From Candidatus Polarisedimenticolia bacterium (GTDB taxonomy: Bacteria; Acidobacteriota; Polarisedimenticolia; Gp22-AA2; AA152), in contig DASYRE010000047.1 in the NCBI GenBank assembly GCA_036004685.1, positions 1-36,983 on the forward strand: a stretch of DNA of 36,983 nucleotides. The letters are read 5' to 3'. The stretch's first letter is position 1. Every line of letters begins with the position of its first letter. Below the pieces are notes generated by a model, which made no database searches, was not told where the DNA came from, and saw only the letters and a program-made list of their open reading frames with translations. A program made the position numbers and the translations under genes. Shown piece after piece: positions 112-16,046 of this stretch.

Positions 112-128
112 CGGAGCAGAATGCTCCG
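112..128. promoter_or_regulatory. Perfect dyad CGGAGCAGAATGCTCCG, candidate enhancer (UAS) for sigma-54 activator
   Basis: The arms CGGAGCA and TGCTCCG flank a GAA centre. The core GCAGAATGC is the exact reverse complement of GCATTCTGC, which occurs twice (plus a third near copy) upstream of the second IPTL-CTERM gene. It lies about 120 bp upstream of the predicted start site of the sigma-54 promoter at 215-230, a normal enhancer distance. The likely binder is the Fis-type helix-turn-helix of the regulator at 2513-3886; that is inference. Confidence 0.55.
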
Positions 129-214: not shown

Positions 215-230
215 AGGCACGCTGGTTGCT
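215..230 (+). promoter_or_regulatory. Sigma-54 (-24/-12) promoter of IPTL-CTERM gene 1
   Basis: The sequence AGGCACGCTGGTTGCT matches the consensus TGGCACG-N4-TTGCW at every conserved position except the first T. The GG (216-217) and GC (228-229) doublets have the required spacing. Transcription would start near 241, about 80 nt before the ATG at 324. A sigma-54 activator is encoded at 2513-3886. Confidence 0.72.
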
Positions 231-323: not shown

Positions 324-1262
324 ATGGCAAGGAAGGCGAGGAGACTGCATTGGGTGATCGGTGTTTTGACATTTCTCATGGGAGGTTCCGAGATCGTCCG
401 GGCGGCGAGTTCACAGTCGGAGCACTTTCCCGTCCCAGCGCCCACCAGCGCGCCGATCGGTATTAACTTGAAGGCCATTGGCTTCCGACCTGTTGGATGC
501 CAAGTGAACACCCTGGTTGCGGCTGACGCGCCAGCGGTCATCGCCAGGAAGGCCGCCTCGGCCCTTTGCCAATGCATCCTGGAAGCAGGCATTAGTTGTC
601 CCGGGGCAGTCTGCAATCCTGTCCCTATCTCCCCACTCGCGGTCACGTGCATCGGAGGCCTTCAAGGTGAGAGCTTCAATCTAACGCAAACTGCGGGCTC
701 GGATGGTCTGGAGGTCGGTACCGGCTTCGGGAACATAGCCAATCTGAATTGCACCAACAACAATAACTATCCGGATATACGCGCCGATCTCGCCGCCCGG
801 GTTCTCCTCCAGGTTCGCTCCAATGCCATAGCGGGACAGGTCAACGTCAGGATATTCCACAACCAAGGCGGTCAGAATCCCAGAATTGCTTCCTTCAACG
901 TCGGCGCGGCCGACAGTTCGCAGACGATTGCCAACGGCATTCGAGACGCAATCAATGCGCTGGCATTCAGCCCGGATGTGATCGCAGTCACGCACCCTCC
1001 TTCTGATGCCAGCGTTCCGCTCACGCATTTCCCGGCGACCTACTTCGGTCAGTACTTCGTCGAGATCACCAATGCACAAGCCGCAGGCGTGACGGACGTC
1101 GAGGTCGTTGTGCAGTCGGGACAGGGCTTCACTCTCGAGCCCACTGAGAACGTCAATGATATTCCGACACTAAGCGAGTGGGCGATGATCATCCTGACCA
1201 TCTTCCTACTCGGATCGGGATACTGGCTGCTGCGCAGACAGCGTCGATCGGCGCTAGCGTAG
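324..1262 (+). CDS. Secreted protein with C-terminal IPTL-CTERM sorting signal (substrate 1)
   Basis: This 312-residue protein has an N-terminal signal peptide (basic MARKARR, hydrophobic stretch, cleavage probably after VRA). Its C-terminal tail is a textbook IPTL-CTERM signal: IPTLSEWAM, then a transmembrane helix, then a basic RRQRR cluster. Exosortase H is expected to cleave or transfer the protein at this tail during export. Cysteines cluster near residues 75-105 (several CxC or spaced Cys), so disulfides are likely. The middle is not a family I recognise; it is rich in N, A and V and probably beta-structured. An in-frame start exists at 273, but ATG 324 follows AGGAG at good spacing. 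It is preceded by a sigma-54 promoter. Confidence 0.88.
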   Translation: MARKARRLHWVIGVLTFLMGGSEIVRAASSQSEHFPVPAPTSAPIGINLKAIGFRPVGCQVNTLVAADAPAVIARKAASALCQCILEAGISCPGAVCNPVPISPLAVTCIGGLQGESFNLTQTAGSDGLEVGTGFGNIANLNCTNNNNYPDIRADLAARVLLQVRSNAIAGQVNVRIFHNQGGQNPRIASFNVGAADSSQTIANGIRDAINALAFSPDVIAVTHPPSDASVPLTHFPATYFGQYFVEITNAQAAGVTDVEVVVQSGQGFTLEPTENVNDIPTLSEWAMIILTIFLLGSGYWLLRRQRRSALA

Positions 1263-1329: not shown

Positions 1330-2343
1330 CTATGCCTTTCTCTCTCGCAATCCCGTCCGCCATATCCCGGTTCGGAGGAGCCATTCCTGGGGATGCGGAT
1401 ACAGATAAATCTGCTCAGAGATACACGGGATGCGCTGTTGGCGAGCATGACGCCTCAATAGCGTGAGAGGTGCGATCAGAGGCACCAGGCCGCGCCGGTA
1501 GTCTTCCAGCAGCTCCCCTATCTCCGTCATTTTGGTCCGGTCGAGATGATTCGCGAAGAAGCCCCCGACGTGCTGCAGAACGTTGAAGTGTCCCTTGACC
1601 GAGGCCGGCTTTCCAAGTGCTTTCATGAATGTCTCGCCGTACAATCGACACAGATCGGCCCGAGAGTGCGCCGGGGCCTGCGCCACCATTCGCCCCAGCC
1701 CCTGATAAAGCCTCGGATTGTGTGCAAGGAGCAGGAATTTGTGGGCATTGTGGAACGTGACGAGGTCGCGCCTCCGGCATCCCCCTGTTTCGAGTTCCTT
1801 CCAGCGCCGGTAGGCGAAGACTCGCACGATGAAGCTCTCCCACCGGCCCGGATCCTGAAGTCTTCCCTCTTCCTCCACCGGCAAGAGAGGAAAACGCTCC
1901 ATGAGCTGGCGCGCGAAGAGGCCTGTCCCCTGCCGCAGCGGAGGGCCCTTCCCCGCGTGGATCTTGACGCGCTCCATCCCGCACGAGGGAGAATCGCTCT
2001 TAAGAAGATAACCGCAGAGATCCATCTCCTCCAGCCGTCGGATCCGGTTGCGGGAGTATTCCGTCATCTTGGAGGTCCAATCCTCGCCGGACTTCGCGCC
2101 GACCATCTTCGGCGCTTCAACACGTCCCGTCAGCCGGACCGGCTCTCGGGGGATTCCCATCCCGACCTCCAGCTCCGGACAGACAGGAACCCATTCAAAA
2201 CACTTTCCCAGCGTCTCAGCGATAAAACGATTCCGCTTGTGGCCACCGTCCCAGCGGACCTCCTCTCCGAGCAGGCAGCTGCTGATTCCGATGCGGATCC
2301 GCAAGCCATCGGTCAACGCCATTCCGCGGACCAGCCTTTTCAA
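1330..2343 (-). CDS. DUF523 (TudS-like)-DUF1722 fusion, probable tRNA 4-thiouridine desulfidase (RudS-like)
   Basis: This 337-residue protein has an N-terminal DUF523/TudS domain (about 15-170) and a C-terminal DUF1722 (YbgA-like) domain (about 185-325). TudS enzymes hold a [4Fe-4S] cluster with three cysteines and remove sulfur from thiouracil. Candidates here are C23 (SSCLLG), C55 (PVCPE) and C121 (SPSCG), all in family motifs. From memory, the same TudS-DUF1722 fusion was recently named RudS, which converts 4-thiouridine in tRNA back to uridine. The TTG start at 2343 has GGAG eight bases upstream; ATG 2322 is the alternative. No partner gene is visible. About 170 bp separate it from the regulator gene upstream. 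Confidence 0.8.
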   Translation of the reverse strand: MKRLVRGMALTDGLRIRIGISSCLLGEEVRWDGGHKRNRFIAETLGKCFEWVPVCPELEVGMGIPREPVRLTGRVEAPKMVGAKSGEDWTSKMTEYSRNRIRRLEEMDLCGYLLKSDSPSCGMERVKIHAGKGPPLRQGTGLFARQLMERFPLLPVEEEGRLQDPGRWESFIVRVFAYRRWKELETGGCRRRDLVTFHNAHKFLLLAHNPRLYQGLGRMVAQAPAHSRADLCRLYGETFMKALGKPASVKGHFNVLQHVGGFFANHLDRTKMTEIGELLEDYRRGLVPLIAPLTLLRRHARQQRIPCISEQIYLYPHPQEWLLRTGIWRTGLRERKA

Positions 2344-2512: not shown

Positions 2513-3886
2513 TCACGAAGGAGGCTCGATCCCGAGGTCCCGCATCTTCCGGCGCAGAGTCGATCGGTGAATCCCGAGGCTACGAGCCGCTCGGCCTTTG
2601 TGGCCGCGGGCCGCACGCAAGGCTTCCACAAGCGCGCGAGCCTCGATCGAGCGGAGACTCGACTCGGCTTCTCCCGGGGGCGGCTCCATGATCGGCCGGC
2701 CGCGGCCGATGCCCGTGGACATCGTGGACGGCGATCGATGACGGGCAGCACCGCTTAAGACGCCCTCGAGGGGAAGGACGTGGCGAGGCTCCAGGACTCC
2801 TCCCTGGACCTGCATCCTGATCCCTTCGAGGATATTCCGCAATTGGCGTACATTTCCCGGCCATGGATAGGATTGCAGAAGCTCTACCGCGCCGGGATCG
2901 AGAGTGATCCCCGAAGCGCTCAGGAAATGGGCCGCCAGTTGGAGAATGTCGCGACGGCGTTCCCGCAGTGGCGGAATGGCAATCTCCATCCCGCGCAGTC
3001 GATAATAGAGATCTTCCCGGAGATTCCCTTCCATCATCAAGCGTTCAGGATTCTGGTTCGTCGCCGCGAGGAAACGGACCGAAACGGTTCGCGACTCCTC
3101 CGATCCTACCGGCTGGACTCGGCCGTCGTCGATGACACGCAGCAATTTCGCCTGATGCTGTGGATTCAGGCACTCGAGCTCGTCCAGGAATAGTATCCCA
3201 CCACCCGCCTCTTCCAACAGGCCCCGATGATCCCGGTCGGCTCCCGTGAACGCCCCTCGGCGATGCCCGAAAAACTGACTTTCGAACAGGTCCTGCGGGG
3301 AGACCGCGCAATTGTGGGCCACGAAGGGACCTGGCGAGAGATTCGAGAGACGATGGATCGCACGTGCCGCCAGCTCCTTTCCCGTTCCCGTTTCACCGCT
3401 GATCAGGACGTTCACGTCGCTCTTCGCGGCTACCGATATCAGGTGTCTGACTCGTATCATGCAGGGACTGGAGCCAATGATTTCAGCAATCGACCGGTCG
3501 GCGACCTGAAAAGGGTTGTGCTTCCCGGCCAAGGCCCGCAGCGCCGTCGAGCAGAGGAGTGAGGGAGAGACGGGCTTGGTGAGGTAGTTGGTGGCGCCGC
3601 TCTTGAGGGCCTCGACCACGCGAGCCACGTCCTGCTCCACAGTGACCAAAATGACGGGAACTTCGGGCCACCGCTCTTTGACGAGCCTCAGGAGCTCCAG
3701 ACCGTCCAAATCGGGCATCCTGAGATCCGAGACGACCAGATCCGGAAGAGAAGCCTCGAGGCATAGCAAAGCCTCGATTCCTCCCGCGGCGCTCCGGACC
3801 TCGGAGAACTCCTCCGCGAGCGCCAGACTCATGAAACCCAGGGAGGCTGGATCGTCGTCCACGACGAGGGCCGTAGTCTTTCTCAT
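2513..3886 (-). CDS. NtrC-family sigma-54-dependent response regulator
   Basis: This 457-residue protein has three domains. The receiver (1-120) has acidic residues D10-D12, phospho-acceptor D54 (VSDLRMP) and K104 (LTKP). The AAA+ sigma-54 activator domain (about 135-365) has Walker A GETGTGKE (164-171), the sigma-54 contact loop GAFTGA (211-216) and Walker B ILFLDE (231-236). A Fis-type helix-turn-helix occupies the last 45 residues (RAARSLGIHRSTLRRKM). All key residues are intact. It starts 3 nt after the kinase gene at 3890-5128, so the two form one operon. Both IPTL-CTERM genes nearby have sigma-54 promoters and are the obvious targets, by position and promoter type. Confidence 0.93.
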   Translation of the reverse strand: MRKTTALVVDDDPASLGFMSLALAEEFSEVRSAAGGIEALLCLEASLPDLVVSDLRMPDLDGLELLRLVKERWPEVPVILVTVEQDVARVVEALKSGATNYLTKPVSPSLLCSTALRALAGKHNPFQVADRSIAEIIGSSPCMIRVRHLISVAAKSDVNVLISGETGTGKELAARAIHRLSNLSPGPFVAHNCAVSPQDLFESQFFGHRRGAFTGADRDHRGLLEEAGGGILFLDELECLNPQHQAKLLRVIDDGRVQPVGSEESRTVSVRFLAATNQNPERLMMEGNLREDLYYRLRGMEIAIPPLRERRRDILQLAAHFLSASGITLDPGAVELLQSYPWPGNVRQLRNILEGIRMQVQGGVLEPRHVLPLEGVLSGAARHRSPSTMSTGIGRGRPIMEPPPGEAESSLRSIEARALVEALRAARGHKGRAARSLGIHRSTLRRKMRDLGIEPPS

Positions 3887-3889
3887 GAT

Positions 3890-5128
3890 TCAATGACCTC
3901 GGACGGGAATTCCAATAAAGATCTCCGTGCCTCCGCGCCGTCGAGGAGCCACCTTGAGGAAACCGCCCTGGGACTCCACGGCCCGGCGCGCGAGGAAAAG
4001 ACCTAATCCTGCACCGTCCGGCTTGGTCGTGTAGCCCGGCCTGAATATGGCCTCGAGTTCAGATTCGTCGATCCCTTCACCCTCATCCCGCACCGCGATC
4101 TGCAGCGTCCCGTTTAGGGAAAGGCTCTCGAGCGAAACCTCTCCCCTTCCGTGCATCGACTCGGCGGCGTTTCGAACCAAATTGAGAAGGACTTCGTGCA
4201 ACACCGCCCCGGTCGTGTTAATGGCCGGGAGCGGCTCCTGGACCTGCCGGCTCCACCGGATTTCCGGGTAGCATATCGAGACTTCGCGGATGACGTCATC
4301 GATGACTCGCAGCGTCTGTGCTCCCTCCGTCGCTCCCGGACGGTCGGCCTCGTCACGTCGCGGACCGAAAGTGAACCGGATGACCTCCTCCAACTGCCCG
4401 ATACAGGCCTGAAGCCCTCGGAGCGCCGGGTTCCCCGTGTCTCCCGCTCCCAGCCTCCTTTGGATCAGATCGACGAATCCACGCATCGCATAAATGGCGT
4501 TTTTCGTAGAATGGGCGAGACGAGCGGCGTCTGGCCCCGCATTCCCAACGTGGTGGAGTCTCTCCAATTCCTGTTCGAGAGAGCTCAACCGAGCGCACAG
4601 TTCCGACTTCTCGAGCGAGAATTCGTTTCGCGCCCGTTGCCAGCGCGATGAGAGCAGAAAAGCGACCAGGCCCATCAAAACGAGGAACCCGGTTTCGAGC
4701 CCAAGAGGTCGGAGCGCCCCCGCGAATCCCAGGAGCGACTGCTGCATCCAGAGGCAGCCGATTGAAATGGACGAGATGAGCAGAGTGCCCCACCCGACGA
4801 AGGTGAAGGCCGACAGCAAGGTTTCCAGCGCGAAGCCGGCGATGAAAGGAGAGCCGGCGCCGCCGCTTTGAAACGAAAGAAGTGCCCAGCTCGTGATTCC
4901 GAAGAGCGGTGAGACGTATCGGGCGAGACGGCTCGTTTCGGGTCGATCCCAAAGAATCGCCAACGCCAGATTGGACAGCGCGGTGATTCCGATGAGCCAG
5001 AGGAAAGCGTTGCCCGCGCGAAGGGTAACCGGCCAGAGAAGCGACGCCGCGGCAGCCAGACAGATTGCCAAGTGCCGAATGACGAGGGCTGTATCCATCC
5101 TGCGAAGGGCCGAGAGGATTCCACTCAT
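3890..5128 (-). CDS. Membrane sensor histidine kinase paired with the sigma-54 regulator
   Basis: This 412-residue protein has an N-terminal half (about 15-162) with five to six hydrophobic segments and little periplasmic loop, so it may sense a membrane signal. A short coiled coil (about 165-195) leads to the phospho-acceptor box with H206 (ARLAHSTKNAIYAM). The ATPase domain has the N box (N320 in LLNLVRNAAESM), G1 DEGEGI (348-353) and G2 GAGLGL (372-377). The layout resembles NtrB/AtoS-type kinases and the PrsK kinases of PEP-CTERM systems; I cannot say which is closer. It is the first gene of the kinase-regulator operon, behind a sigma-70-type promoter at 5221-5249. Confidence 0.92.
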   Translation of the reverse strand: MSGILSALRRMDTALVIRHLAICLAAAASLLWPVTLRAGNAFLWLIGITALSNLALAILWDRPETSRLARYVSPLFGITSWALLSFQSGGAGSPFIAGFALETLLSAFTFVGWGTLLISSISIGCLWMQQSLLGFAGALRPLGLETGFLVLMGLVAFLLSSRWQRARNEFSLEKSELCARLSSLEQELERLHHVGNAGPDAARLAHSTKNAIYAMRGFVDLIQRRLGAGDTGNPALRGLQACIGQLEEVIRFTFGPRRDEADRPGATEGAQTLRVIDDVIREVSICYPEIRWSRQVQEPLPAINTTGAVLHEVLLNLVRNAAESMHGRGEVSLESLSLNGTLQIAVRDEGEGIDESELEAIFRPGYTTKPDGAGLGLFLARRAVESQGGFLKVAPRRRGGTEIFIGIPVRGH

Positions 5129-5464: not shown

Positions 5465-6451
5465 TCAATTCGCAGGAGGCGGGATGGCGATGATCTCCGG
5501 AACCGCGGGCTTCTCCTTCCCCCTCTGCAATTCCGTCAGACTGCGCTCCACTTGCCGGATCCATCGGGGATCCTGGAAGATCAACCGGCCTCGGCGAAGA
5601 AGACGGGCCGCTTCTCGGTTCTTCCCCTCCATTCGAAGGAGCTCTGAGAGCCTGAACCAAGCCTCGGGGTCCAACGAGCCTTCGGAGACGGCTGAGCCGT
5701 ATTCCTTCCTCGCCTTCTCCAGCGCGCCGCGATCGTAGAAATAGCCTCCGAGTTTCACGTGAGTCTTCTGGTGGAGTGGATTCGCGTTCCGGGAATGAAC
5801 CCACCTCGATGCGCCGAAAGCTGCGGCGGCCACGGCAAGAACGCAGGCGCCGAGCACCAAAGGCCGAAGCTTTGGAGACGTGGAAGGGGCGGGAGCCAGT
5901 GCTCCGGGGGTTTCGCCGACGCTTCCTTTCGGGGACGCCGCTCCATTCCAGAAGGCCGTCACCAGCAGGAGGATAAAGGGACCTGCTTGCAGGGGAACGA
6001 CATAGAGAACGTACCAGAGGCACTCGACGACGTTGAACTCCCATGGGAGTAGCAGGAGCATCCCCTGCTCCTCGAAGAGAGTCTTGGCCGTGCGGAGCTG
6101 GATCGCCAGAACCGCAGAAATGAAATCCAAGAGAAGGACCGACACCAGGATCGAGCCAAACCCGAGGATGCGACGCCGAAGCCCAATTCGCATGGAGAGC
6201 AGGAAAAGGACCAGCACCAGAACGAGGTGGGAATGCTGATTCTGGATTTGCCATTCCTCGGTGCCAGGAAGCTCGGAGAAATGACTCATCCATCCGAGGA
6301 CACGATCGCCCTGGGCTCCCAGAAAGTCCAGATAGTGCCGCTGAATACGGGAGCCGCTCCAGAGAGGATAGACAGCCAAGTAGATACAGAAAGCAATAAG
6401 CGCACGGCACAGCTCCCGTCCGAAGGGAAAGGAAGCGAAGCTATGCACCAT
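5465..6451 (-). CDS. Exosortase H-associated membrane protein with C-terminal TPR-like extension
   Basis: This 328-residue protein starts at ATG 6451, inside the last codons of exosortase H (11-bp overlap), implying translational coupling. The first 190 or so residues contain about five hydrophobic segments and an exposed loop around residues 40-75 (ELPGTEEWQIQNQHSH). This fits the membrane protein that accompanies exosortase H in other genomes. A further membrane segment near residue 205-225 is followed by a soluble tail (about 235-320) that looks like two TPR-type helix pairs (YYDRGALEKARKEYGSAV style, then WFRLSELLRMEGKNREAARLL). The tail may recruit partners on one side of the membrane. 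Family membership is judged by position and topology, not alignment. Confidence 0.72.
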   Translation of the reverse strand: MVHSFASFPFGRELCRALIAFCIYLAVYPLWSGSRIQRHYLDFLGAQGDRVLGWMSHFSELPGTEEWQIQNQHSHLVLVLVLFLLSMRIGLRRRILGFGSILVSVLLLDFISAVLAIQLRTAKTLFEEQGMLLLLPWEFNVVECLWYVLYVVPLQAGPFILLLVTAFWNGAASPKGSVGETPGALAPAPSTSPKLRPLVLGACVLAVAAAAFGASRWVHSRNANPLHQKTHVKLGGYFYDRGALEKARKEYGSAVSEGSLDPEAWFRLSELLRMEGKNREAARLLRRGRLIFQDPRWIRQVERSLTELQRGKEKPAVPEIIAIPPPAN

Positions 6452-6944
6452 CTCCGGTCGGAGTTTCGGATGCACTGCTGGCAAGGAACCTCCCCCAGCC
6501 GAGGAAGATGCCGAAGGAAAGGAGCGCAATGAGCGTCTGCCAGACGTAGACGTGGAAGAATTCCAAGGATTCCGGGTGGTATCGAGCGACGTAAAACAGG
6601 TTGACGAGCCGGACGAGATTCAAGCCGAACACCCCGACCGCAGCCATCACCAGTCCGATGAGCCGGCGAGTCCAGGGCGCGGGGAAAGCGAGAATGGCCG
6701 AGGCGCAGAGCACCAGCGCGTGAACCCCGTTGCACCCCGGCTTCACCGAGACGCTCCCGGACTCCGTCTTGACCACGGTTCCGGCCGCTTGCAAGCTTGC
6801 CCCTCCCCAGCGCGAGAGCTCCACGGCCCATCGAGCGTTCAGGGCGGTCCAGGGCTCGACGAACCACTCCTTGACAGGCGGCAGGAGAAGGAGCAGATTG
6901 CCGGCCAACAGATACAGGGCGAAGAGGAAAACAAATCGTCGCAC
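6441..6944 (-). CDS. xrtH: Exosortase H, IPTL-CTERM-specific transpeptidase/protease
   Basis: This 167-residue multi-pass membrane protein is predicted to cleave IPTL-CTERM tails and attach or release the exported protein. The exosortase catalytic triad is visible: C71 in PGCNGVHA, R112 in LNLVRLVNLFY and H131 in FFHVYVWQ. The surrounding residues (PPVKEWFVEPWT near the start, LAFPAPWTRRL, the closing WQTLIAL helix) match my memory of the exosortase H class. The frame stays open to 7172, but residues upstream of GTG 6944 lack membrane character and lie opposite the divergent gene, so GTG 6944 is preferred. Two IPTL-CTERM substrates are encoded within 7 kb. Confidence 0.88.
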   Translation of the reverse strand: MRRFVFLFALYLLAGNLLLLLPPVKEWFVEPWTALNARWAVELSRWGGASLQAAGTVVKTESGSVSVKPGCNGVHALVLCASAILAFPAPWTRRLIGLVMAAVGVFGLNLVRLVNLFYVARYHPESLEFFHVYVWQTLIALLSFGIFLGWGRFLASSASETPTGDGA

Positions 6945-6984: not shown

Positions 6985-7809
6985 TTGAGGTCAGAGCTGA
7001 ACTCTTTGTACCGCACCCTCCTTCGAGTTGCAAGCGGATCTTTCAAGACGGCCGGACGAATCATCTTCCGGGTAGTGGTGGAACCCTGGAAGATCGCGGC
7101 TGGCGAGTTTCTCGATGCCCTCGATGCGGCGCTTTTCTCAGGGAGACGGCTGGCGGGACTTCTCTTCTTCACGGCGGGTTGCTGGGTGCTCTACGTTCCG
7201 CTCCATGAGCTGCTTCATGCCTTGGGCGCGATCGCGAGCGGCGGGAGCGTCCAGGAACTGCAGATCCAGTCTCTGTACGGTGGCCGAATTCTGGAAAGGA
7301 TCTTCCCTTTCGTTCGCTCGGGCGGCAAGTATGCCGGCCGGCTGACACGCTTCGACACGAACGGATCGGATCTCGTCTATCTTGCCATCGATCTCGCTCC
7401 TTTCGTTCCGACAGCCCTCGCAGCCTCGACCCTCCTCAGAATCGCCAGGGCGCGAAAAAGCATCGTTCTTCTCGCTCCAGGCACGATGCTCGTTGTTGCG
7501 CCGCTTCTCTCGCTGACGGGGGACCTGTACGAGGCGGGATCCGTTCTCCTCACCGCGCTCGCCCTGCCTCCGGCAGGTTTCCTAGTGGATCGAGACCGCT
7601 GGATGGCCCTGCGCTCCGACGATCTCGTCGCTCTCCTGGGCGAATTTACGGCCCGGTTCCCGACGCACCGGGTGTTGTTCGGGACCGCGGTCACGATCTC
7701 CGCCCTGCTTGGGATGGCCGTCGGGGGACTGATCCTGCACCTGAGCGCGTTGCTCGCCGATCGGTGGACGCGAGGGACCACCCAGATCGCCCGCGACGCT
7801 GCAAGTTGA
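6985..7809 (+). CDS. Multi-pass membrane protein with HELLH motif, possible M50-like metalloprotease
   Basis: This protein of about 274 residues has a hydrophobic segment (about 55-72) ending in LHELLHALGA, an HExxH zinc motif (H74, E75, H78) inside the membrane as in site-2-protease-like families. Three to four more membrane segments follow; GDLYEAG (about 179-185) could supply a third ligand (D180 or E183). The classical NPDG motif of M50 proteases is not clear. It is divergent from exosortase H by about 40 bp and runs toward IPTL substrate 2, so a role in substrate maturation or signalling is possible but unproven. The TTG start at 6985 is weak; GTG codons near 7072 are alternatives. Confidence 0.7.
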   Translation: MRSELNSLYRTLLRVASGSFKTAGRIIFRVVVEPWKIAAGEFLDALDAALFSGRRLAGLLFFTAGCWVLYVPLHELLHALGAIASGGSVQELQIQSLYGGRILERIFPFVRSGGKYAGRLTRFDTNGSDLVYLAIDLAPFVPTALAASTLLRIARARKSIVLLAPGTMLVVAPLLSLTGDLYEAGSVLLTALALPPAGFLVDRDRWMALRSDDLVALLGEFTARFPTHRVLFGTAVTISALLGMAVGGLILHLSALLADRWTRGTTQIARDAAS

Positions 7810-7874
7810 GCGGGGGGGCGCAAAACGCTCCACCGTTCCAACGACCCGGAAAGCACTAAAAACACTTGCATCGA

Positions 7875-7964
7875 CATTCTGCGCCTCAAAGGTATGGCGC
7901 ATTCTGCACCCATGTCCATTTGATACTAACGAGTATTTCCCGCCTGAGTAAGCTTGCATTCTGC
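7875..7964. promoter_or_regulatory. Three CATTCTGC repeats, candidate enhancer sites upstream of IPTL-CTERM gene 2
   Basis: CATTCTGC occurs at 7875-7882, as GCATTCTGC at 7899-7907 and again as GCATTCTGC at 7956-7964. The same 9-mer in reverse complement forms the core of the perfect dyad at 112-128 upstream of the other IPTL gene. The copies lie about 75 to 155 bp upstream of the start site predicted from the sigma-54 promoter at 8008-8022. ATGGCGCATT (about 7894-7903) is also shared, inverted, with 51-60. Confidence 0.5.
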
Positions 7965-8007
7965 GGGTTCTGAAATACTTGTCGAAATCTCTTCGAGAAA
8001 AAGCATC

Positions 8008-8022
8008 TGGCATCCGGATTGC
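8008..8022 (+). promoter_or_regulatory. Sigma-54 (-24/-12) promoter of IPTL-CTERM gene 2
   Basis: TGGCATCCGGATTGC matches TGGCAC-N5-TTGC with one change (C to T at position 6). The GG (8009-8010) and GC (8021-8022) doublets have exact spacing. Start of transcription would be near 8034, about 59 nt before the ATG at 8093. An imperfect 10-bp dyad (8023-8043) overlaps the predicted start site. Confidence 0.68.
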
Positions 8023-8092
8023 GAGAGGGCGAATCGCTCTCTCTCACAATCAGATCCATTCGGCACGGCTTGTCCACGAGGAGGAACAAGAA

Positions 8093-9331
8093 ATGCGTGA
8101 CTTGTCCAAGCTGCTCCTGCTGTCGGTCCTATCGTTGCTGATTTCCACGAACCTGCGCGCCGCTTCCAACGAGTTACCGGACAGCGCACTCGGCTGCGGG
8201 CCGGTCACAAATCTCTCGAATTTCCCCACTCCTCCTGCTTTCAGGCAACTGTTCTCGGCGGTGCGTTTTACCAAGGCCGGAAAAGATTTCTACTTCACCC
8301 CCGTTACGTCGTTGGCAGCCGGCTTCGGTGGTGAGGTCAAAGAGGCTCCCTGTGATACGGGCGAGGCACTTGCCACACAGGCCGTCAACAACTACTGCCG
8401 CAAGGCCTTCCTCCTAGACTGCCCCAATGCCAATGGTTCTGGACCATGCGCCGATAACGAACTGACGACCAACCCTCTCGACCCTCAGTTCCTGTTCTCG
8501 AAACACAAGTTTAGAGTGAGCACGGGTCCGGGGAGAAGCACGGTCGGTGCGGTTCCCGCCCAATGCAAACTGTCGGGGGAGCCAGGTGCGGCACCGGATT
8601 GCTGCGCCATCGGCCTCGGGGTCCCCGCTGTGATTTACATTGAATCGACGGAGACCAGCCCGAATTGCGGCTTCAAGATCACCAAGACCGGGCTTGGAAC
8701 TTTCGAGATCGACGACGACGTTCCTTGTCAACTCAATTCCCTGTTTACGTTCACCACCGGTGGAAATGTCGTCGGGGTGGACCTTCAGCCGCAATATCTC
8801 GTCCAGATCAGCCGGACATGCACCGCGGGAACCAACAGCGGCAACGCCTGTGTCTCGAACGTCGACTGCCCAGGCGGCGGCACGTGCCCCAATGGAATCG
8901 TGACGTTCACGCTCGACCCCATTACCGGCTCGAATCAGGTTTTCACGGTCGACACGACGGGGAAGAATGACGATACGATCGCCGACGAGGTCACCACCAA
9001 GATGTTGGCGACCGGTTTGGGGCTCGACGCGCAGACCGATCGCAATGCGCGCTTCTCTCAAAACGATGAGATTTCAAGGATAGATCCCATCGCGAAGGCC
9101 GATAAGAAGGCCCGTTTCGCCCCGGGCTCCCGCTCGCGCGTCGCCAACGCGAAGAGCAAGCTCGTCTCGGTCAGGGTGTCGGGGCCGCTGAACATGGGGA
9201 TTGTGGCGGAGACGAGCGATTTTGATCTCGGTATTCCGACCCTGAACCAGTGGGGAATGGCGCTGGTGGTCATTCTGCTCCTGGCGTCGAGCTATTGGCT
9301 GCTTCGCCGCAGGCGGCTGTCCCGGGAGTAG
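8093..9331 (+). CDS. Secreted protein with C-terminal IPTL-CTERM sorting signal (substrate 2)
   Basis: This 412-residue protein has a clear signal peptide (MRDLSKLLLLSVLSLLIS, cleavage near LRAAS) and ends in IPTLNQWGMALVVILLLAS, then YWLLRRRRLSRE: motif, membrane helix and basic tail of IPTL-CTERM. The mature part has many cysteines, including a spaced Cys-rich segment around residues 240-268 (CTAGTNSGNACVSNVDCPGG). No enzymatic domain is recognised; it shares the general character of substrate 1 (secreted, Cys-containing, N/T/G-rich) but no obvious alignment. ATG 8093 is chosen over earlier in-frame starts because of the upstream GAGGAGG-like site (about 8078-8084) and the promoter at 8008-8022. 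Confidence 0.9.
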   Translation: MRDLSKLLLLSVLSLLISTNLRAASNELPDSALGCGPVTNLSNFPTPPAFRQLFSAVRFTKAGKDFYFTPVTSLAAGFGGEVKEAPCDTGEALATQAVNNYCRKAFLLDCPNANGSGPCADNELTTNPLDPQFLFSKHKFRVSTGPGRSTVGAVPAQCKLSGEPGAAPDCCAIGLGVPAVIYIESTETSPNCGFKITKTGLGTFEIDDDVPCQLNSLFTFTTGGNVVGVDLQPQYLVQISRTCTAGTNSGNACVSNVDCPGGGTCPNGIVTFTLDPITGSNQVFTVDTTGKNDDTIADEVTTKMLATGLGLDAQTDRNARFSQNDEISRIDPIAKADKKARFAPGSRSRVANAKSKLVSVRVSGPLNMGIVAETSDFDLGIPTLNQWGMALVVILLLASSYWLLRRRRLSRE

Positions 9332-15191: not shown

Positions 15192-16046
15192 TCAGGAAGG
15201 GCGGCGGCCTTCAGCCCAGCAGACGGCGAACCAGATCGACGCGTCGGGGCGCTTCGACCAGGCGCGCAGCGCCTGCAGCGCCGACTCGACCGCCTCGGCG
15301 GCGAGCAGGTCGTGCGCCAGGATCGCCTCGCTCGACCCGGCGATCACCCGCAGCAAGTTTTCGGCGAATCCCGCGAAGCTCCGGTTTCCGGCGCAGCTGC
15401 CGAAGAAGATCCAGGTGTTCCGGGCGGGAAGCGCGCCCGCCCCGTGCAGCAGGGAGACGAGCCGGCGGCCGACGTAGGGATCGTTTCCAACGCGGTCGAA
15501 GCTGCGCTGGTAGGCGGCCCAAAGCGCGCTGAATCCCGGAACGGGCGGCCAGAGCCGCAGGACATCGTGATCGTCGTCTTCCAGGACGATCCGGCCCCCC
15601 GGCCGCACCGCCCTCACGAGCGCGCGCACGGCTCGCGGCGGGTCGCGCAGGTGCTCGAGCAGGAAGCGGGCGTGGGCGACGTCGAAGGTGCCCCATTCCT
15701 GGTCGCGCAAAGGGGGCGCCAGGGCGTCGCCGAGGCGGAACTCGACGCGCTGCGGATCGCCTTCCCGCTTGGCGAGGCGCAGGGCCTGCGCGAGCTGGTC
15801 GCGGCTGCGCTCGATGCCGATCACCCTCCCCCGGCGGCCCGCCCGGGACGCCATGGCCCGGGCGAATTGTCCCAGCCCGCTTCCCATCTCCAGAATCTTC
15901 TCCCCTCCTCGAAGAGCGAGCTCCCGCAGCGAGCCCTCGTTGAGCAAGTCGTTGAGCAGGGCGAGCCGCCGCTGCTCGGCGGCGGAGGTGCCGTGCAGAT
16001 AATGGGATCGCGGGATCGGAGCCTTCGGCCGGCGCCCCTCCTTCAA
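15192..16046 (-). CDS. Class I SAM-dependent methyltransferase
   Basis: This 284-residue protein has a Rossmann methyltransferase core: motif I ILEMGSGLGQFARAMA (about 51-66), the acidic end of strand 2 (IGIERS), FRLGDAL and the motif around FDVAHARFLLEHLRDPP, then VRPGGRIVLEDDDH. It resembles UbiE/Methyltransf_11-type enzymes acting on small molecules or lipids; the substrate is unknown. The C-terminal 110 residues are alpha-helical and not diagnostic. Start TTG 16046 has GGGAGG at good spacing. The other long minus frame at 15211-16059 is its out-of-phase shadow. It follows the receiver gene at 16121 in the same direction. Confidence 0.82.
   Translation of the reverse strand: MKEGRRPKAPIPRSHYLHGTSAAEQRRLALLNDLLNEGSLRELALRGGEKILEMGSGLGQFARAMASRAGRRGRVIGIERSRDQLAQALRLAKREGDPQRVEFRLGDALAPPLRDQEWGTFDVAHARFLLEHLRDPPRAVRALVRAVRPGGRIVLEDDDHDVLRLWPPVPGFSALWAAYQRSFDRVGNDPYVGRRLVSLLHGAGALPARNTWIFFGSCAGNRSFAGFAENLLRVIAGSSEAILAHDLLAAEAVESALQALRAWSKRPDASIWFAVCWAEGRRPS

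Follow-up and report, generated by a model that had tools for sequence, protein, structure and literature searches.

The closest described counterpart of the locus analysed here is the PEP-CTERM/EpsH (XrtA) system of Proteobacteria, which features PrsK, PrsR and PrsT together with an upstream region containing motif 1 and motif 2 (Haft 2006, PMC1569441). In front of PEP-CTERM genes, the sigma-54 motif precedes the start by 71 nt on average, and the activator motif lies on average another 63 nt upstream (PMC1569441). For pepA of Aquincola tertiaricarbonis, use of the -24/-12 promoter was demonstrated by primer extension and with an rpoN1 mutant (PMC9850573). We found no description of the regulation of XrtH/IPTL systems in the literature searched.

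We analysed a stretch of 36,983 nucleotides from Candidatus Polarisedimenticolia bacterium (hereafter the window), in which the genes relevant to sorting are the following:

324-1262, forward strand: IPTL-CTERM gene 1 (ATG at 324 with AGGAG; reading frame open from 273)
2513-3886, reverse strand: NtrC-type sigma-54 activator (receiver, AAA+ with GAFTGA, Fis-type HTH)
3890-5128, reverse strand: membrane-bound histidine kinase paired with the activator
5465-6529, reverse strand: membrane protein whose gene overlaps xrtH, with TPR at the C terminus
6441-6944, reverse strand: exosortase H (XrtH; TIGR04177, 108.3 bits, cut-off 86)
6985-7809, forward strand: membrane protein with weak similarity to M50B peptidases, next to IPTL gene 2 on its upstream side
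8093-9331, forward strand: IPTL-CTERM gene 2 (encodes a signal peptide, a secreted region and, at the C terminus, the IPTL sorting signal)

Based on this arrangement and the comparisons below, we consider it likely that positions 8008-8022 represent the sigma-54 promoter of an exosortase H substrate gene, and one half of a two-gene regulon under the linked kinase and activator. The kinase/activator pair beside XrtH appears to switch on the only two clear targets of this enzyme through matching activator-binding sites. Common to the locus and PEP-CTERM/EpsH (PMC1569441) are exosortase substrates that form single-gene units preceded by long upstream regions. In both, a sigma-54 motif lies about 71 nt ahead of the start, with a predicted activator site, sometimes repeated, beyond it, and an NtrC-type regulator and a membrane kinase are arranged in tandem, sometimes near the exosortase. 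With A. tertiaricarbonis pepA (PMC9850573) it shares an exosortase-type substrate gene under predicted sigma-54 control and a predicted enhancer upstream. Whereas pepA belongs to PEP-CTERM/PrsKR and has been studied by experiment, the locus in the window is known from sequence alone, through promoter matches, site repeats, gene content and conservation in relatives.

The two IPTL-CTERM proteins scored 30.1 (gene 1) and 22 bits (gene 2) against TIGR04174, above its cut-off of 20.5; these are the only IPTL genes above the family cut-off in the genome, which also encodes exosortase H. Structure prediction for IPTL protein 2 gave a model too poor to use (mean pLDDT 37). Genes 1 and 2 are separated by those for the activator, the kinase, the TPR membrane protein, exosortase H and the M50B-like membrane protein. 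The activator shows the composition of a bacterial enhancer-binding protein, with a Sigma54_activat domain, intact GAFTGA, Walker motifs, receiver aspartates and HTH_8. The start of XrtH was placed by comparison with a second XrtH copy in the host genome (C13:18911-19414, L043), which lies at a contig end and is 70% identical to the window XrtH; we identified no IPTL gene and no kinase/activator pair around this copy on its 19.5 kb contig. A homologue of the M50B-like protein (39% identical; L057 913-1629) is located beside XrtH in a genome from another family of the phylum (G047). A YbgA-like gene (PRK10167 match; 1332-2343, reverse strand) lies near the activator and has a 47% homologue at the locus of the relative G004 (L059 5656-6270); it has no evident connection with sorting.

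Upstream of the two IPTL genes we identified the following candidate regulatory sites, where core positions are given relative to the -24 element:

113-127, reverse strand: candidate activator site GGAGCATTCTGCTCC of IPTL gene 1, core at -99, one of the two exact genome matches (the second is at 7896-7910)
215-229, forward strand: predicted sigma-54 promoter of IPTL gene 1, AGGCACGCTGGTTGC (motif match and weight-matrix rank)
7871-7885, forward strand: third, weaker candidate activator site of IPTL gene 2, core ACATTCTGC at -134
7896-7910, forward strand: candidate activator site GGCGCATTCTGCACC of IPTL gene 2, core at -109
7953-7967, forward strand: second candidate activator site of IPTL gene 2, core GCATTCTGC at -52
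8008-8022, forward strand: predicted sigma-54 (-24/-12) promoter of IPTL gene 2, TGGCATCCGGATTGC (motif match and weight-matrix rank)

In TGGCATCCGGATTGC the GG occupies positions 8009-8010 and the GC positions 8021-8022. This gives the GG-N10-GC spacing between the -24 and -12 elements by which such promoters are recognised, and the site differs from TGGCACN5TTGC by a single change, C to T. The ATG of IPTL gene 2 (8093) is located 70 nt past the -12 element with the Shine-Dalgarno sequence GAGGAGG in front, and the predicted +1 falls at 8034. A preliminary description of this site had reported exact spacing, one change from consensus, a distance of about 70 bp to the ATG and a start near 8034, with all of which our analysis agrees. 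The host genome encodes sigma-54 in a single rpoN copy (456.6 bits).

The candidate activator sites follow the palindrome GGnGCA-TTC-TGCnCC, which is located about 90-110 bp upstream in the IPTL regions. At 113-127 the arms GGAGCA/TGCTCC are perfectly complementary, and a perfect palindrome CGGAGCATTCTGCTCCG encloses the core GCATTCTGC; the region upstream of IPTL gene 2, on which this core was defined, contains three copies of CATTCTGC. The 9-mer core GCATTCTGC is found 15 times in the genome. Three of these copies lie within the two IPTL upstream regions and are the only ones genome-wide outside long open frames; the other 12 of the 15 are within such frames, with no good sigma-54 site close by. 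The site at 7896-7910 is one of only two exact occurrences of GGNGCATTCTGCNCC in the genome, and the extended 15-bp form GGnGCATTCTGCnCC, whose refinement drew on some of the sites later scored with it, has exactly two perfect genome matches, both in the IPTL upstream regions of the window. A blind de novo search for 9-mers common to six upstream regions ranked shifts of this palindrome first, with a score equalled by none of 200 random sets.

Of the 41 genomes in the class, four have an orthologue of the kinase: the host (G000) and three relatives (G001, G004 and G007). All four carry XrtH, and in each of them the activator, kinase and XrtH adjoin one another. Other XrtH loci examined in the phylum gave no strong activator match, and a search of the kinase alignment against genome contigs returned only generic kinases (25-43% over the conserved domain). 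In G007 a sigma-54 site precedes all three IPTL genes (L182 1477, L182 18581 and L062 3172). The one gene of the G004 IPTL locus has the sigma-54 site TGGCACGTCGCATGC; it is orthologous to G007 gene 3 and was counted as IPTL by homology because the contig stops before its IPTL end. Alignment of these G004 and G007 upstream regions revealed conserved blocks that include the promoter and GCAGCCTAAnCTGCT. The IPTL gene of G001 (L063 6292-7488) shows no good -24/-12 site and no GCATTCTGC site, despite the adjoining kinase, activator and XrtH. None of 26 IPTL genes taken from other genomes in the phylum has a sigma-54 site of at least 12 bits within 250 bp. Sites are thus present at four of five IPTL genes in genomes with the kinase and activator versus 0 of 26 elsewhere (Fisher p = 1.6e-4, with the window's own genes left out and related genes not fully independent).

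Allowing one mismatch, the core recurs in the relatives, again relative to the -24 element, at -98 (G007 gene 1), -88 (G007 gene 2) and -189 (G004); the background rate is about 0.05 per 250 bp. Together with -99 and -109 in the window, the first two of these give four upstream regions with a core at a similar distance. No such 9-mer was found upstream of G007 gene 3. The activator site is therefore less clear for G007 gene 3, where the 9-mer is absent, and for G004, where the copy lies at -189. A conserved imperfect palindrome, GCAGCCTAA[G/T]CTGC (L062 ~3124; L181 ~1260), lies about 48 bp ahead of the promoter in the orthologous G007 and G004 genes and may be a diverged activator site. Exact matches to the 15-bp motif in G001, G004 and G007 look like chance occurrences, with neither an IPTL gene nor a good sigma-54 site where one would be expected. 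A GCAGC-N4-GCTG palindrome in G001 was rejected as an activator site; it is a terminator stem followed by a T-rich run.

Because the NtrC-family activator and kinase are linked to the IPTL genes, sigma-54 sites accompany this pair in relatives and candidate palindromes are shared upstream, 8008-8022 is very probably a real sigma-54 promoter, as first described. Such a promoter could be driven by another activator of the genome. More activators of the NtrC type are probably present there, and linkage and co-occurrence are indirect evidence. We nevertheless regard this as unlikely, given that the kinase/activator pair sits between both IPTL genes and beside XrtH, that within the class it is limited to XrtH carriers, and that no further target with the same candidate activator site was found elsewhere in the genome.

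That 8008-8022 is instead a chance -24/-12 look-alike, with IPTL gene 2 transcribed from another promoter, is quite unlikely, even though the motif itself is common. Sites with at most one mismatch to TGGCACN5TTGC number 136 in the whole genome (3.84 Mb), about one per 28 kb, and are not enriched over a reversed-pattern control (189). Another one-mismatch match, TGGCGCCCCCTTTGC at 15707-15721 on the reverse strand, is the third-best sigma-54-like match in the window; it lies within open frames and is probably due to chance. The preliminary description had called such promoters rare and proposed a genome-wide count of equal-scoring matches; as worded, this argument fails because one-mismatch matches are about as common as chance would have it. 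The stricter pattern TGGCAN6TTGC occurs 31 times versus 13 for the control, and therefore some excess of true sigma-54 sites does exist in the genome. In an approximate weight matrix, whose weights come from general knowledge of the sigma-54 consensus and not from a published table, 215-229 and 8008-8022 rank first and second among the ~74,000 positions on both strands of the window, and each lies directly upstream of one IPTL gene. Shuffled windows are expected to contain 0.3-0.4 sites at their score. The evidence for the promoter is its location rather than the quality of the match, and this position is not chance-like; the association with IPTL genes is seen again in G007 and G004, and the promoter sites come with shared palindromes.

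Compared with PEP-CTERM/EpsH, the window contains exosortase H and IPTL-CTERM instead of EpsH and PEP-CTERM, and the host genome has only two targets. The activator scored 252.8 against the PrsR model (TIGR02915, cut-off 502.6) and the kinase 55.1 against the PrsK model (TIGR02916, cut-off 300). Motif 1 ends in TTTACA, which is absent from both IPTL upstream regions; in its place, the window has the palindrome GGnGCATTCTGCnCC. The gap between this palindrome and the -24 element is mostly larger, about 80-100 bp versus a mean spacer of 63. The system thus resembles the Prs plan but is not a member of it, since the activator and kinase are far below the cut-offs and neither upstream region has motif 1. 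A PrsK/PrsR/PrsT PEP-CTERM system simply transferred to IPTL genes would follow the same logic, with the promoter equally far from the start codon (70 nt in the window against a mean of 71 in PMC1569441), but these scores, the missing motif and the lack of any PrsT match make it very improbable. With NtrC-family enhancer-binding proteins the activator shares its receiver, AAA+ domain with GAFTGA, Fis-type HTH and linkage to a kinase that is broadly of the same type, but it falls below every equivalog cut-off listed, including that of NtrC itself (365 versus 558.6).

In the circuit that we infer, the membrane kinase (3890-5128) would sense a cue and phosphorylate the NtrC-type activator (2513-3886). 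The latter would bind the GGnGCA-TTC-TGCnCC palindromes that lie about 90-110 bp ahead of the -24 element and, through a DNA loop, reach the RNA polymerase-sigma54 poised at 215-229 and 8008-8022. ATP hydrolysis by the activator is expected to open the promoter. These four steps are modelled on the architecture of the locus and its co-conservation. The two secreted IPTL-CTERM proteins would then be produced and both processed by the adjacent XrtH, as the families involved suggest.

The balance tips slightly towards a sigma-54 two-component circuit distinct from PrsK/PrsR, with its own palindromic site, that is dedicated to XrtH/IPTL in one order and acts on the substrates only. If so, sigma-54 control of exosortase substrates arose or was re-wired more than once. 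Tight sigma-54 control of substrates by a kinase and activator would then extend from PEP-CTERM/XrtA to another exosortase class, and the control of XrtH/IPTL would use regulators different from PrsK/PrsR, with a defined binding site and regulon.
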